This document shows positions 790 through 34,034 of a stretch of 64,000 nucleotides of DNA, in pieces (position 1 is the first letter of the stretch; each line of letters starts with the position of its first letter). The translations under genes and the position numbers were made by a program. A model generated the notes under the pieces. That model did no database searches. It was not told the origin of the DNA and was given only the letters and a program-made list of their open reading frames with translations. The stretch is from Magnetospirillum sp. (GTDB lineage Bacteria > Pseudomonadota > Alphaproteobacteria > CACIAM-22H2), in the NCBI GenBank assembly GCA_027532905.1, contig JAPZUA010000006.1, positions 124,001 through 188,000 on the forward strand, written 5' to 3'.

Positions 790-881
790 AAAGTTATTAG
801 GAATATGTATTTATAGACGCAGTGCCATTTGCGGCATGCGCTGTTTGAAAAGTGAAGATCGCAACGGCCCGATCGGGCTAT

Positions 882-899: not shown

Positions 900-990
900 T
901 TTGGAGATTGTGGCTATATTCTTTTTTATCAATAGCTTAAATAGACGACGGTCGCCTATTGTAACCCCTTGTCGCCAGAGGCCGCGTGGC

Positions 991-9139: not shown

Positions 9140-10468
9140 ATGGCGCCCAAACCGCAGACCTATCCCAAACTCTCCCAGCTCGATCTTTCCAAAGCGATCG
9201 AAGCGCACGGCCGCATGCTGTCCAAGCAGTCGAACGGCAAACGCCTCGCCCTGCCGTTCCACACGCTCGAGCGCCTGAGCTTCGGCGCCAAGCAGCTTGC
9301 CGAGATCGAACTCGTGGGTGCGCGCGTCGCGGAAGCCGATTTTGCCGGCGCCAATCTTGCGCGCGCCAATTTCTTCGGCGCCGATCTCACGCGCGCCAAC
9401 ATGAAGGGCTGCGATCTCACGCGCGCGGACATGCGCGGCGTTTTGCTGCGCGGCGCCAACCTCGAGGGCGCGCAGATGCCGCAGGTCGATCTGCGCGACG
9501 GTTTCCTGATCGTGCCCGATGAAAACGGCGATTTTGATTTCGCGAAGGCCACGCAGCGCGTCGCGAATATTGACGACGCCTCGTTCGCGCGCGCCAACAT
9601 GACGGACGCCAAAATCGCGCGCGCCTTCGGCAGGCGTACCGATCTCACCAATTGCATTCTGCGCAACGCCAATCTCGCAGGAGCCGATTTCTCCTATTCC
9701 GATCTGTCGGGTGTGGTGCTGAGCGGGGCCGATCTCACCGACGCCAACCTTTCGCACTGCCTGCTGCAGGGGGCCGTGCTGGCGGGTGCGCTGCTCCACA
9801 ACACCAATCTCGAGGGGGCCGATCTTACGGCCGCCCAATTCACCAAAAAGGATTTCGAGCGCACCGACGTGTCCAAGGCGATCCTGCCGCGCGCCCTCGA
9901 CACGCTCGATCTGCCGGTGCGCGAAATCGTCGAGCGGCATTTCCTGTGGCTGCAGAGCGGCGGGCAGAAGGGCGTGCAGGCCGTGCTCGACGCGGTCGAT
10001 CTGTCGGGCTTCGACGCACCCGCAGTGAATTTTTCGGCCGCGCGTTTCAAGCGCGCCACGCTGATCGACGCCAATCTCGCAGGGGCGAAATTCCAGATGG
10101 CGGACCTCACGGGCGCCAATCTTGCGGGCGCCAATCTCGCCAATGCCGATCTGCGCGGGGCCACACTCGACCGCTGCATCCTGAACGGTGCGGACCTCTC
10201 GAACGCCGATCTGGGGCCGATGCCGCTGCCGACGACCGCGACAGGGCGCTGGCCCGCGCGCATGCGCGGCGCCCAGCTGCAGCGCGTCGATCTGCGCGGC
10301 GCCAAGCTGGGCGAGGCCGATCTGTCGGAATCGATGTTCCAGCGCGCCGATTTCCGCGACGCCGATCTCAGGGGCGCCAAATTCATCGACACCGACCTTA
10401 CGGGTGCCGATCTGCGCGACGCCCAGATCGACGACGCCGATTTCCGCGGCGCTGTCGGGCGCAAATAG
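9140..10468 (+). CDS. Pentapeptide-repeat protein (paralogue 2)
   Basis: A 442-residue protein with two blocks of A(D/N)LxxA pentapeptide repeats (about residues 50-245 and 290-440). The non-repeat N terminus (QLDLSKAIEAHGRMLSKQ) and the mid-protein spacer containing RHFLWLQSGGQKGVQAVLD correspond to the same parts in the protein at 4361-5605. A further interruption near residue 120 (LIVPDENGDFDFAKAT) breaks the first block. The ATG follows GGGGGG closely. No signal peptide or membrane segment is visible, so a cytosolic beta-helix scaffold is likely. Its partner and role are unknown. The two paralogues sit on either side of glnA-glnB-aminotransferase-tRNA-His on opposite strands. Confidence 0.88.
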   Translation: MAPKPQTYPKLSQLDLSKAIEAHGRMLSKQSNGKRLALPFHTLERLSFGAKQLAEIELVGARVAEADFAGANLARANFFGADLTRANMKGCDLTRADMRGVLLRGANLEGAQMPQVDLRDGFLIVPDENGDFDFAKATQRVANIDDASFARANMTDAKIARAFGRRTDLTNCILRNANLAGADFSYSDLSGVVLSGADLTDANLSHCLLQGAVLAGALLHNTNLEGADLTAAQFTKKDFERTDVSKAILPRALDTLDLPVREIVERHFLWLQSGGQKGVQAVLDAVDLSGFDAPAVNFSAARFKRATLIDANLAGAKFQMADLTGANLAGANLANADLRGATLDRCILNGADLSNADLGPMPLPTTATGRWPARMRGAQLQRVDLRGAKLGEADLSESMFQRADFRDADLRGAKFIDTDLTGADLRDAQIDDADFRGAVGRK

Positions 10469-21916: not shown

Positions 21917-22279
21917 TTATTTGACCGCTTCGTCGTCGCGCAACAGGCGAACGAGCATACGGCGAACAAGGTCCTGGCCGCCGAAGAAGATCGCCAGTAT
22001 CCGAATGCGCTTGGCTGCTGGATCGACGTCGAACCAGTAGATGGCGCGATCGATGGTGATATGCCGCACACCCGGTAGAACGTCGTCGCGAAGCGTGCCG
22101 CGCATCGGCGATGCGGCGAGCGTGGCGGCCGCGTGTCGGATCGCCGCAATCCGCAGAGCTGCGTGATCCAAAGCTTGTTCGGCGCTTTCGCCGAACCCGA
22201 CATAGCTTGCGAAAAGATGGTCGAAGATCGCCTCGAAATCGCGCGCGCCGTCGGCCGAAAACTCAATCTTGAACGCCAT
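21917..22279 (-). CDS. parE: ParE-family toxin (RelE/ParE superfamily)
   Basis: A 120-residue toxin of the RelE/ParE fold: FSADGARDFEAIFDHL at the N terminus, the central ESAEQALDHAALRIAAIR helix, and GVRHITIDRAIYWFDVDPAAKRIRILAIFFGGQD with the typical late strand and F-G-G-Q-D ending. ParE toxins poison DNA gyrase. The ATG at 22279 overlaps the last 17 bases of parD, a standard antitoxin-toxin arrangement. The C-terminal tail RRMLVRLLRDDE is slightly longer than usual. Intact by eye. Confidence 0.88.
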   Translation of the reverse strand: MAFKIEFSADGARDFEAIFDHLFASYVGFGESAEQALDHAALRIAAIRHAAATLAASPMRGTLRDDVLPGVRHITIDRAIYWFDVDPAAKRIRILAIFFGGQDLVRRMLVRLLRDDEAVK

Positions 22280-22538
22280 GTTCCCGACGCTTTCTGGCGA
22301 CAAGTCGGGACAGATTTTCGTCCATTTTTTTGCCGGAAACGAATTTGCCCGCACGGCGTCGGGCCAGCAGTTCGGCGAGGGCGGCCCGCTCCATGTCGTC
22401 GGCTTCCATCTGCCGGCGCAGAAGCTCGACGCCCTGCTGCAGAACCGCACTCACGCTCTGAAAGCGACCGGCTTCGACAAGGTGCTTGGCGAAGGAATGC
22501 TGATCGTCGGTCAGCGAAATCGAAGATTTTACGGTCAT
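22263..22538 (-). CDS. parD: ParD-family antitoxin
   Basis: A 91-residue antitoxin with an N-terminal ribbon-helix-helix (VKSSISLTDDQHSFAKHLVEAGRFQSVSAVLQQG) that binds the promoter as a dimer, and a C-terminal region (ALAELLARRRAGKFVS) that neutralises ParE. I choose ATG 22538, seven bases after GAGAG; an ATG two codons upstream abuts that site. A 17-bp perfect palindrome 34 bp upstream is the probable autoregulatory operator. Confidence 0.88.
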   Translation of the reverse strand: MTVKSSISLTDDQHSFAKHLVEAGRFQSVSAVLQQGVELLRRQMEADDMERAALAELLARRRAGKFVSGKKMDENLSRLVARKRREHGVQD

Positions 22539-22571
22539 GGGCATTCTCTCGGGAAAACGCAATAATCAAAA

Positions 22572-22588: not shown

Positions 22589-22825
22589 CACGTGCAAGCG
22601 CCCGTCCTGCCTTGGTGCAAAAGCACGCTCGAATATTCTTGTTTTGTTCATTTTCTTCTTGTAGTGTATTCGCAAGTTGGAAACACGTTCCAGCGGTGCT
22701 GTTTGAAATTGTGAATGAGGAGTTTGGGCAGCACGGACGCGTCGCAATTTTTTCAGTGCGACTGTCGCATTGCCCGATCTTCGGGTCTCGGAAAATCAAG
22801 CGCTTAGAGACGTGTCTTCAGAAAA
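22589..22825. other. AT-rich intergenic spacer between parD operator and 11-bp array
   Basis: About 240 bases without a credible gene. Base composition is clearly more AT-rich than the surrounding genes. The short ORFs here lack family features and ribosome-binding sites. It separates the ParDE module from the repeat array at 22826-22913. Confidence 0.6.
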
Positions 22826-22913
22826 ATGTCGCGTAAGACGGCCAAAAAGGTTGCGTCTAGGTCGCGTGGATGTCGCGCTTGTGTCGCGTCTATGTCGCGC
22901 AGATGTTGCGCCG
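22826..22913 (-). repeat. 11-bp tandem array A (8 units)
   Basis: Eight consecutive 11-base units, with no gap and no change of phase. On the plus strand most read ATGTCGCG followed by three variable bases (for example at 22826, 22870, 22892); unit 2 (22837-22847) is the most diverged. In the sense of the adjacent gene the core is CGCGACAT. The array begins 7 bases after the stop codon of the dehydrogenase gene. As 11 is not a multiple of 3 it is not a coding repeat. Confidence 0.85.
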
Positions 22914-22920
22914 CGCGGGC

Positions 22921-24282
22921 TTACTCGGCCGCTTTGCTGTTGGGCCGGGCAAACGCCGCTTCCATCTCGCGGCGGATTTTGACCGCATGGTCGGTCGCAT
23001 CGTAGACCACGTCGGCCCAGCCGATCTGCTCGCCCTCGGCGATGTCGCGTTTCAGCGTGACGTGGCTTGCGAGGCCGAGCGGGAGAAAGCCCTTCTCGAG
23101 CGAGCGCGTGGCGGGCACTTGTTTGCCCCACACGCAATAGCCGCCTTCGCCGTCCAGCACTTCGCCGGCTTTGAGCGGGCGTTTGGCCGTCGCGGCGACG
23201 TCCGAATGGAAGGCAAGCGGGGCACCGGTCGGTTCGTTGCGGAGTGCGGCACTTGCGACAGAGATGCCGATCTCGAGGCCGATCATGTGGATCGGCCGGT
23301 AGAGCGCCATATGCTCGCAGGTTTCGTCGGGCAGCATGCAATATTCGGCCGCACAGCGGCGGACGTACTCGTGGTCGGCGGCGACGACCACGTAAGTGCC
23401 CCATTGCAGATGGTTGGGTACGGGCGTCTTGTCGCGATAGAGCGAGGAGACGACTTCGACCGTGCCGGCTTTGTCGAGCACGCCGCCTTTGGCTTTGGGC
23501 TTGCAGATTTTGGCAAGGTCCGGGGCGGGGACGGGCGGGAAGGCGAGACCGTCATCTTGGGCAAGCAGGCCCGTCGCGTTCGACACGGCCGTCATCTCGA
23601 TGCCGGATTTCGAGCCGTCGATGAAGCTGTTGAACATCTTCGGGTTCATGCCGCCTTTGCGGGCCATCTCGTCGGAAAAACCGAAATTCGCCCACACCGT
23701 GTCGGGCGTCGAGCGGTGAAAGTCGGGATGGTAGCGCGTACCTTTGCCGGCCGACACGACCTCGAAGCCGCAGGCCCGCGCCCAATCGACCTGTTCGCAG
23801 ATGAGGGCGGGTTGGTCGCCGTAGGCCAGCGAATAGACCACGCCTTGCGCGCGCGCCTTGGCGGCGAGGAGCGGGCCCGCGACGACGTCGGCTTCGACAT
23901 TGACCATCACGATGTGTTTGCCCGCCGCGATCGCGTTCAAGCAAAAGCGAATGCCTGCACGTGGATCGCCGGTCGCCTCGACAATCACTTCGATGCCGGG
24001 ATGGTCGATCACGGCATCGGCATTGTCGGTGACGAACGTCGTGCCCTTGTCGATCGCTTGGCCGAGCGAAGTTGCGGCCGTCCGCTCTTCCGCCCAGCCG
24101 CAGCTCGCAAGGGCCGCACGCGCGCGCGGCGGCGACAAATCGGCAATGCCCACAATATGGAGACCGACCGTTTTGCGGGCCTGGGCCAGAAACATCGTGC
24201 CGAATTTGCCGGCCCCGATAAGCCCGACGGTCACGGGTTTGCCTGCGGCCGCACGGGCGGCGAGTTTGGCGGCAAGATTCAT
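22921..24282 (-). CDS. NAD(P)-dependent oxidoreductase with C-terminal SAF domain (homoserine dehydrogenase-like)
   Basis: A 453-residue protein. The N-terminal Rossmann domain has VTVGLIGAGKFGTMFLAQ, DHPGIEVIVEATGDP and GKHIVMVNVEADVV, as in homoserine dehydrogenase and the Gfo/Idh group. The middle domain contains GKGTRYHPDFHRSTPDTVW and FIDGSKSGIEMTAVSNATGL. The C-terminal part (residues about 350-430; FHSDVAATAKRPLKAGEVLDGEGG, then LPLGLASHVTLKRDIAEGEQI) is a SAF domain as found in sialic-acid synthase-like and altronate dehydratase-like enzymes. The combination is known in uncharacterised proteins; the substrate is not known, possibly a sugar acid or amino acid. The ATG has GGAGGAA eight bases upstream. 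An 11-bp repeat array follows its stop. Confidence 0.85.
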   Translation of the reverse strand: MNLAAKLAARAAAGKPVTVGLIGAGKFGTMFLAQARKTVGLHIVGIADLSPPRARAALASCGWAEERTAATSLGQAIDKGTTFVTDNADAVIDHPGIEVIVEATGDPRAGIRFCLNAIAAGKHIVMVNVEADVVAGPLLAAKARAQGVVYSLAYGDQPALICEQVDWARACGFEVVSAGKGTRYHPDFHRSTPDTVWANFGFSDEMARKGGMNPKMFNSFIDGSKSGIEMTAVSNATGLLAQDDGLAFPPVPAPDLAKICKPKAKGGVLDKAGTVEVVSSLYRDKTPVPNHLQWGTYVVVAADHEYVRRCAAEYCMLPDETCEHMALYRPIHMIGLEIGISVASAALRNEPTGAPLAFHSDVAATAKRPLKAGEVLDGEGGYCVWGKQVPATRSLEKGFLPLGLASHVTLKRDIAEGEQIGWADVVYDATDHAVKIRREMEAAFARPNSKAAE

Positions 24283-33704: not shown

Positions 33705-33781
33705 CCAAGCGACATCTGCGCGACATTGACGCGGCATCCATGCGCCACTTGCGCGACATAGACGCGACATACGCGCGACAT
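33705..33781 (+). repeat. 11-bp tandem array B (7 units)
   Basis: Seven consecutive 11-base units in strict phase, 43 bases after the stop of the AsmA-like gene. Each unit is three variable bases followed by CGCGACAT or a one- to two-base variant. Perfect cores end at 33726, 33759, 33770 and 33781; the unit 33738-33748 is the most diverged. The last unit runs into a T7 stretch. Relative to the upstream gene the orientation is the same as array A. Confidence 0.85.
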
Positions 33782-34034
33782 TTTTTTAGCCAAGTAATTG
33801 ATAAATAATAATTCAGAAGACGAATCGCACGGGATTTGGTGGACGCTACATTTGCGCCCCGAATTTGAAGTCTCCAGCTGATTGAATCGAGCAATCTTCA
33901 TAAAGGTAATATAGCATATCTAGGTTATAAAAGAAAAATGCTCTGACGGCTGTGATGGATCGTCGTATTGGGAAATCTGCACGCCCCGACAATGTTGGGA
34001 CCGCGTGCAACCGTTGAGGAGCGAGGACGAGACG
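33782..34034. other. AT-rich spacer upstream of the broken higA
   Basis: About 250 bases with strongly raised AT content (for example GATAAATAATAATTC and TAATATAGCATATC). I looked for a HigB toxin gene ahead of higA and saw none: no ORF with RelE-fold motifs in any frame. An ORF on the minus strand covering this area has no family features and is the antisense shadow of higA. Confidence 0.55.

Follow-up and report, generated by a model that had tools for sequence, protein, structure and literature searches.

The window analysed here, a 64,000-nucleotide stretch of Magnetospirillum sp. DNA, contains a run of 11-bp direct repeats (22826-22913) beside the end of a dehydrogenase gene, and the locus raises the question of what such a run is for. 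The array is 88 bp long and consists of eight 11-bp registers, seven of them recognisable units, starting on the + strand at 22826, 22837, 22848, 22859, 22870, 22881, 22892 and 22903. A core near ATGTCGCG is kept in seven of the eight registers; the second (22837, GACGGCCA) is degenerate, with the 11-bp phase retained across it. The original prediction of a phased array with a core in all eight units thus stands for the unbroken phase and for seven of the cores, but not for the unit at 22837. The TRF scores of the repeat are weak (39 and 46). When up to one mismatch is allowed, the own genome has 38 pairs of cores spaced 11 bp apart, versus 0 for the reversed control pattern, and a chance origin was rejected on these counts; at two mismatches or fewer, there are 63 two-core matches, scattered single matches included, versus 1 in the control. 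Recent slippage was likewise rejected because the unit spacers differ and because other species carry arrays at the same loci with the phase retained. The pattern therefore shows neither the random frequency nor the restriction to a single strain that had been named beforehand as counting against it, since arrays are present in four species. A coding repeat is also ruled out, as predicted: 11 is not a multiple of 3, and the array is intergenic according to gene calls made with a purpose-made codon-usage caller.

The array does not stand alone. In the reading direction of the dehydrogenase gene, the arrays are followed by a conserved tail whose reverse complement, GCTGTTTGAnAnnGTGAA, is the rrn boxA. 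The whole element covers about 275 bases, with the 11-bp repeats occupying one end. Its order on the + strand is promoter-like site, hairpin, boxA, IHF-like site, array and convergent gene stop:

22639..22667, + strand: promoter-like site TTGTTT-N17-TAGTGT, read from the sequence
22676..22694, + strand: hairpin (boxB-like) directly 5′ of boxA, a terminator-like stem-loop in the scan
22698..22715, + strand: boxA, rrn-type antitermination signal GCTGTTTGAAATTGTGAA, a motif also present in rRNA operons
22794..22806, + strand: IHF-like site AATCAAGCGCTTA, matching 9/9 scored positions of WATCAANNNNTTR
22826..22913, + strand: class B array, eight 11-bp registers with seven recognisable units ATGTCGCGNNN
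22921..24282, − strand: convergent gene (DRL_cat/SAF-type dehydrogenase), whose stop lies 7 nt after the array

The original interpretation is therefore partly supported. It had considered the array by itself. The larger element of which the array forms the distal end runs on the opposite strand and belongs to a genome-wide family of two classes; the linked helix-turn-helix (HTH) protein family that tracks these elements was not part of that interpretation.

Sixty-one genomes were scanned with the two-core pattern (at most one mismatch), and 21 gave any match. Many matches were obtained only in G000, the own genome (38), G002 (28), G003 (30) and G004 (at least 62), the others having three or fewer; in G005, the two-core pattern matched three times with one mismatch and the three-core pattern not at all. 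We studied 56 array loci from these four species of one genus: 13 from G000 (two in the window), 14 from G002, 11 from G003 and, among the matches listed, 18 from G004. G003:C188, at a contig end, and some G004 places were left out of these class B loci, and L137 is counted in the 56 with a score too low for a real array. A wider contig search for the class B array returned 33 stretches, of which 20 come from three MAG records of this genus; most of the other 13 are simple tandem duplications whose spacers are identical or almost so. The spacers vary among the four units of L039; in its relative L058 they are equal. Runs of 3 to 5 units also occur in six viral stretches, in some of them with spacers that vary. 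The second array of the window is the following:

33708..33784, − strand: class B array of seven units, without boxA
33791..33803, − strand: its IHF-like site, TATCAATTACTTG on that strand, 9/9

The class B consensus is RYGTYGCRY followed by two free bases (358 units with at least 5/8 core matches). G3, G6 and C7 are 98-99% fixed across these units, although the removal of units with fewer than 5/8 core matches from the logo and the per-position counts inflates core conservation there. Among 271 intervals between neighbouring cores, 172 equal 11, 40 equal 22 and 10 equal 33; 327 cores (at least 7/8) lie on the array strand and 31 on the opposite strand. Comparison of 187 unit pairs between species (12 loci, same filter) revealed differences in 1% for G3, 7% for T4, 0% for G6 and 1% for C7, versus 37% for position 10 and 48% for position 11. 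At positions 5, 8 and 9 nearly all changes are transitions (43:0, 32:4 and 50:1, transition:transversion), and at positions 10 and 11 the ratio is about 1:1. Over nine locus groups, with compared copies left unfiltered, identity is 0.97 for boxA, 0.85 for array cores and 0.64 for array spacers; it is 0.76 for the IHF-like site, 0.78 for the hairpin and 0.73 for both the promoter region and the body. Identity is 0.67 on the upstream side and 0.79 beyond the array, a stretch mostly occupied by the convergent gene. The ortholog groups were set by hand from gene size, distance and sequence, and G004 members were used in part. Ortholog array alignments are in phase in 32/32 cases, a partly trivial result, as periodic arrays align best at multiples of 11. 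By eye, a variant unit near NNGKCGCAtcg stands third from the distal end in many arrays and is followed by about two good units.

The conserved motif in the leader of the element is that known as boxA; its position in rRNA operons was computed here. It is located 5′ of 16S in G021 (L088) and between tRNA and 23S in G001 (L093), and the rRNA spacer of the own genome carries, between tRNA and 23S (L164), the same motif as the elements. The element boxA thus matches the organism's own rRNA boxA, as for an rrn-type antiterminator. With at most one mismatch it precedes 44 of the 56 arrays, versus about five mismatches in shuffles. Leader features were scored over 84 elements (the 88 found minus four rRNA-operon boxA sites). 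The 34 nt 5′ of boxA fold below shuffles in 76 of them, and in 62 a distance of 25-40 nt separates boxA from the end of the best −10 of a sigma-70-like hexamer pair, versus 21% in mononucleotide shuffles. In the window itself, the terminator-like scan found 2 stem-loops versus a shuffle mean of 1.8, the 22676..22694 hairpin among them, and a stricter promoter scan did not report the promoter-like site at 22639..22667. An Rfam scan gave only two tRNAs in the window, and nothing near gathering score in nine element-bearing loci. About 80 bp separate the promoter-like site from the start of a divergently oriented ParDE-like toxin-antitoxin pair (21917-22562, − strand); ParD scores slightly below the Pfam cut-off, and the toxin, which has no Pfam match, was named by eye.

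Between boxA and the array comes a match to the IHF consensus, WATCAANNNNTTR. A score of at least 8/9 was obtained in 40 of the 56 array loci, compared to 5.4% in dinucleotide shuffles, and a score of 9/9 in 20, compared to 0.4%. The match also keeps a fixed place: the best one lies exactly 22 bp 5′ of the first unit in 31 of the 56 loci. In 18 of the other 25 it is found at −10, −11, −32, −33, −42, −43, −44, −53 or −54, near whole 10.5-bp turns from −22, with the proviso that array starts were set in 11-bp steps, which places the −11, −33 and −44 spacings partly in phase by construction. The remaining seven are at −23 (three), −36, −46, −49 and +1; some off-−22 sites score 7 or less, and related loci are counted more than once in these figures. 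Of the 11 arrays without boxA, 6 have a score of at least 8. Spacing near helical turns points to DNA geometry rather than RNA. Four HU/IHF family matches were found in G000.

Most arrays are directed towards the end of a gene. A convergent gene follows 45 of the 56, with its stop at most 80 nt away in 44, in agreement with the gene-3′-end placement proposed originally. The downstream gene is co-directional at 11 arrays (leuA, galU and others). On the upstream side, 29 arrays have a co-directional gene and 20 have one in the opposite direction; for 7 no upstream gene was seen. Array neighbours in G000 include rpoD, rpoH, a PhoR-like kinase, a HIT protein, leuA and galU, with names assigned from sequence; Pfam was applied to galU, the dehydrogenase, the HTH protein and the ParDE-like pair only. 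The adjacency of the dehydrogenase gene noted at the outset is real, its stop lying just beyond the array, but it has no special role, as other arrays face other genes.

The same leader is also found in front of a second module. Sixteen further tails in G000 lead this class A module, and the 15 that were aligned share an ungapped 53-bp core with GGTTACC/GCGAC sites, of the pattern AATAGGTTACC...GCGAC...GTCGCC...IHF-like, in which inverted GCGAC/GTCGC pairs are present. The window has a class A element of its own (L079), which was left out of the 15-sequence alignment because its start had been set wrongly:

840..856, + strand: boxA of the class A element
928..980, + strand: 53-bp class A core with IHF-like stretch (32.6 bits); a convergent gene ends at 991

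In L099 and L100 (G007 and G008), the sequence after boxA suggests a third site type, GTTGAC/GTCAAC. An IHF-like site lies beside this type in L100. In L089, L091 and L105 (G006, G008), a CCCGGGC-type inverted repeat (such as GTCATGCCCGGGCTTGACCCGGGCAT) between boxA and core resembles an inserted small repeat.

A candidate protein was found at the arrays themselves. In G000, a 178-aa HTH gene (HTH-B, C5:207484-208017) is followed, 22 nt beyond its stop codon, by the boxA-less array L037, and G002, G003 and G004 likewise have a boxA-less class B array behind this gene, the gap being 22-30 nt. The IHF-like scores at the HTH-B locus are weak in G000, G002, G003 and G004 (6, 8, 6 and 7 of 9, respectively). 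In Pfam, the protein matches HTH_7 and HTH_23 above cut-off, HTH domains only; NCBIfam adds a sub-threshold IS630-transposase HTH match. The gene of a second paralogue (HTH-A) lies just 5′ of a mtnP-like gene, named by eye, in six genomes, and the 53-bp core is found inside the 3′ coding end of the HTH-A gene in 6 of 7 genomes. A 53-bp matrix was trained on the 15 class A elements, the HTH-A genes being outside the training set. Over 1.85 million positions (fetched loci and window), it exceeds 12 bits solely at elements and at HTH-A gene 3′ ends (L206 48.8, L207 47.4, L209 47.2, L205 38.1, L208 34.6 and L203 26.4 bits); the HTH-A gene of G007 (L204) has no core above 12 bits. Each of the two HTH gene types is thus accompanied at its end by a site type of its own.

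The family was also followed across 23 genomes of the order (E up to 0.001). Two copies are present in G000, G002, G003 and G004, which have both element classes, one in G006, G007 and G008, which lack the B array, and none in the 16 others. The boxA pattern has 27 matches in G000 (one being the rRNA spacer), 31 in G002, 28 in G003 and 30 in G004; there are 6 in G006, 7 in G007, 7 in G008, one each in G001, G005 and G021, and none in 13 others. Those of G001 and G021 are the rRNA operon sites, and the surroundings in G005 are the same as in G001. The 16 HTH-less genomes thus have at most one boxA match each, and HTH presence coincides exactly with dispersed elements. This phyletic match alone is weak because the element-bearing species may form one clade. 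The 178-aa HTH protein is the likely partner of the arrays; the strongest evidence for this is linkage, in the form of the site type that stands at the end of each HTH gene type. Across the class, a search for boxA and IHF at set spacing matched 7 of 385 genomes; since this method recovers only 1 own-genome element, the negative says little.

A more distant recurrence was found when 142 genomes of the class were searched with a profile of six proteins: at E up to 1e-8 there were matches in four, namely G000, G002, G066 (1) and G117 (5 paralogues). A G117 motif, TGTTTCANNACGTTTCAYRC, occurs 15 times with at most 3 mismatches versus 1 in the control, a descriptive count, as the motif was picked after viewing the 3′ end of one paralogue gene. 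Three places are inside the 3′ coding ends of paralogue genes (3 of 5; C2:504261, C2:147297 and C1:276600), and nine are in five dispersed loci, with three more at 3 mismatches in L229, L232 and L233 that may be unrelated. A boxA-like site (3 mismatches) lies 130-141 nt upstream in three of the five dispersed loci, a match that 0/100 shuffles of each reach; none was found in the other two, and the two motif-bearing loci checked for IHF (L216, L217) gave no match. Recurrence with another motif in this distant genome suggests a wider unannotated family. Two repeat arrangements were also seen in G117. In L224 (C3:478253-478490), a unit of about 109 bp that includes the motif is present in three copies arranged head to tail. 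In L212, a 167-nt sequence is repeated with 96% identity at 2247-2626, at the HTH gene end and directly behind it.

The element is thus a set of modules of regular order and spacing, conserved at the same loci and linked to an HTH family. We propose, with a probability of about 45%, that the array is a tandem operator within a dispersed DNA element and that it forms a polar nucleoprotein barrier stopping or insulating transcription at the end of a unit. HTH-B proteins would occupy adjacent 11-bp units in tandem, all on one face of the DNA, a mode of binding already foreseen for this array and one that its form fits. The HTH-A paralogue would bind the 53-bp core, and IHF would bend the DNA just 5′ of the sites. 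In the usual case the unit would be a short boxA-modified, presumably Rho-resistant non-coding transcript directed towards the convergent gene; at two loci it would be the HTH gene itself. The polar barrier would then halt either the boxA-modified polymerase or the transcript of the HTH gene, in the latter case adding negative control of the HTH gene or of the mtnP-like gene behind it. We favour a barrier because the units face the oncoming polymerase in a fixed orientation, because the arrays precede convergent gene ends and because the HTH gene replaces the boxA unit in front of the same module. The order, orientation and rrn identity of boxA are consistent with it, as are the position-specific constraint in the units, the IHF-like site at −22 or mostly near helical turns from it, its retention in boxA-less arrays, the phyletic match with physical linkage of the HTH genes and the recurrence in G117. 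However, a barrier makes less sense at the 11 arrays with a co-directional downstream gene, and it leaves unexplained why an antiterminated transcript is made. The weak IHF-like site at the HTH-B locus itself and the L204 gene without a core also speak against it, as do the spacings partly in phase by construction, the non-independence of related loci and a phyletic match that would count for little within one clade. Moreover, a pure DNA reading has no need of the RNA-fold signal seen between boxA and array (mean z −1.5, 14/39 below −2).

This fold signal would be accounted for if the element acted as RNA, the AUGUCGCG units of the boxA transcript being bound by an RNA-binding protein or Rho, or paired with RNA. 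The nearly transition-only variation of positions 5, 8 and 9, as G-U-tolerant pairing allows, and a UC dinucleotide every 11 nt in most units would suit such a function. We nevertheless consider it improbable, as boxA-less arrays exist and 6 of 11 keep the IHF-like site, the IHF-array distances mostly match helical turns, the array is not C-rich (C 0.28, G 0.34) and the class A core can sit inside coding sequence. A folded RNA signal in the array is not favoured either: mean fold z is −0.6 in boxA sense and −0.7 in gene sense, with 11 and 3 of 56, respectively, below −2, in line with the earlier claim that this is not a hairpin array. Tens of sites over several contigs, stable in position across species and next to genes in which no common theme was seen, could instead be chromosome-organising sites like those of MatP/matS and SlmA. 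The HTH protein and IHF would then mark or bridge about 30 loci, for which gene ends and boxA transcripts would merely be convenient. This is unlikely, although less so than an RNA function, since it would account neither for the promoter-hairpin-boxA leader nor for a site at the 3′ end of the gene that encodes the protein. A site in this latter place is found in phage packaging, and in lambda cosB repeats occur together with IHF. A domesticated packaging system, possibly gene-transfer-agent-like, with the HTH protein derived from a small terminase and pac/cos-like clusters with IHF, would place the site inside the protein's own gene, as in P22, where pac lies inside the TerS gene (available text of PMC9611059). 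Six of seven HTH-A genes and three of five G117 paralogue genes would show this arrangement if their proteins bind the site clusters within them; the class B array lies after the stop. The HTH protein has weak small-terminase family matches (E 0.04 to 0.5) and weak fold matches to small terminases. However, all these matches are insignificant and the single-sequence structure model behind the fold matches, which serve as leads only, is poor (mean pLDDT 61, pTM 0.27), a search of viral contigs sensitive to close relatives confirmed no HTH relative, and chromosomal location in tens of copies with a boxA leader is foreign to phage TerS-pac. With boxA unexplained, we rank this origin slightly behind chromosome organisation, among the unlikely ones.

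Other known systems share part of the design. REP/RAYT repeats and the IHF-binding BIME/RIP elements also combine dispersed intergenic repeats, a repeat-carrying cognate gene and IHF at gene ends. On this logic the HTH gene with its 3′ site would be an autonomous member, and the boxA elements non-autonomous ones, of a remnant or slow mobile element, for which several site types could also be cited. Yet different species share many of the loci, with units under constraint, class B repeats are direct rather than palindromic and follow an rrn-type leader, and Pfam shows HTH domains and neither a transposase nor the HuH domain of RAYT, the IS630 match being sub-threshold; a mobile origin has, in our estimate, as little chance as the RNA function. 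The PHO box, made of two 11-nt direct repeat units (available text of PMC4415409), raises the least probable of these readings, an operator bound head to tail by an OmpR/PhoB-type response regulator. PhoB/PhoP operators are likewise tandem 11-nt units of conserved and less conserved bases. However, most arrays lie at gene 3′ ends rather than 5′ of starts or upstream of a regulated promoter, an IHF-like site is present and the linked protein is of the HTH_7/HTH_23 type; the element thus fits response-regulator operators in period only. In the CRISPR leader a promoter, boxA and an IHF site precede the repeats, the same order as here. The period of 11 bp, the 3-base spacers and the many small arrays of about 7 units differ. 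The lack of any Cas1 match in the own genome (95.68% complete; the control was positive in 9 of 14 genomes) and the geometry (8-9 bp cores, 2-3 variable bases, no unique spacers of about 30 nt) rule out CRISPR, as had been anticipated. The Beggiatoaceae TAACTGA repeats are also short intergenic direct repeats in many sets per genome; they lie mostly just 5′ of start codons, and the abstract of PMC4679880 mentions neither boxA nor an IHF site, both present here.

The leader resembles the rrn boxB-boxA module of the Nus factor complex, with which it shares the hairpin followed by a boxA matching the organism's own rRNA spacer, and the promoter-like site before them. Unlike that module, it occurs in many non-ribosomal copies, and each copy stands in front of a short untranslated unit closed by operator-like repeats. 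For gammaproteobacteria, a survey counted 0-7 putative boxA sites before genes per genome, non-coding RNAs not being considered (available text of PMC5725501). A single dispersed element here joins an rrn antitermination signal, an IHF-like site and tandem operators, with a candidate protein at hand. How a cell would stop a Rho-resistant polymerase outside rRNA operons thereby becomes testable, as does the reason for a spread of boxA to tens of loci. It is possible, if rather doubtful, that the barrier reading extends to a new regulatory class, in which small HTH proteins with their own site types form IHF-bent tandem complexes as programmed barriers that end boxA units and their own genes. 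Such a class would be a bacterial counterpart of protein-bound rRNA transcription terminators; one genus would have perhaps three of its site types, and a distant family a fourth. A search of the open literature, which took in few subscription papers and was made without the genus name, returned no description of the element. Elsewhere in the window, 15/30-bp tandem repeats at 10263-10452 appear by eye to be of the pentapeptide-repeat kind.
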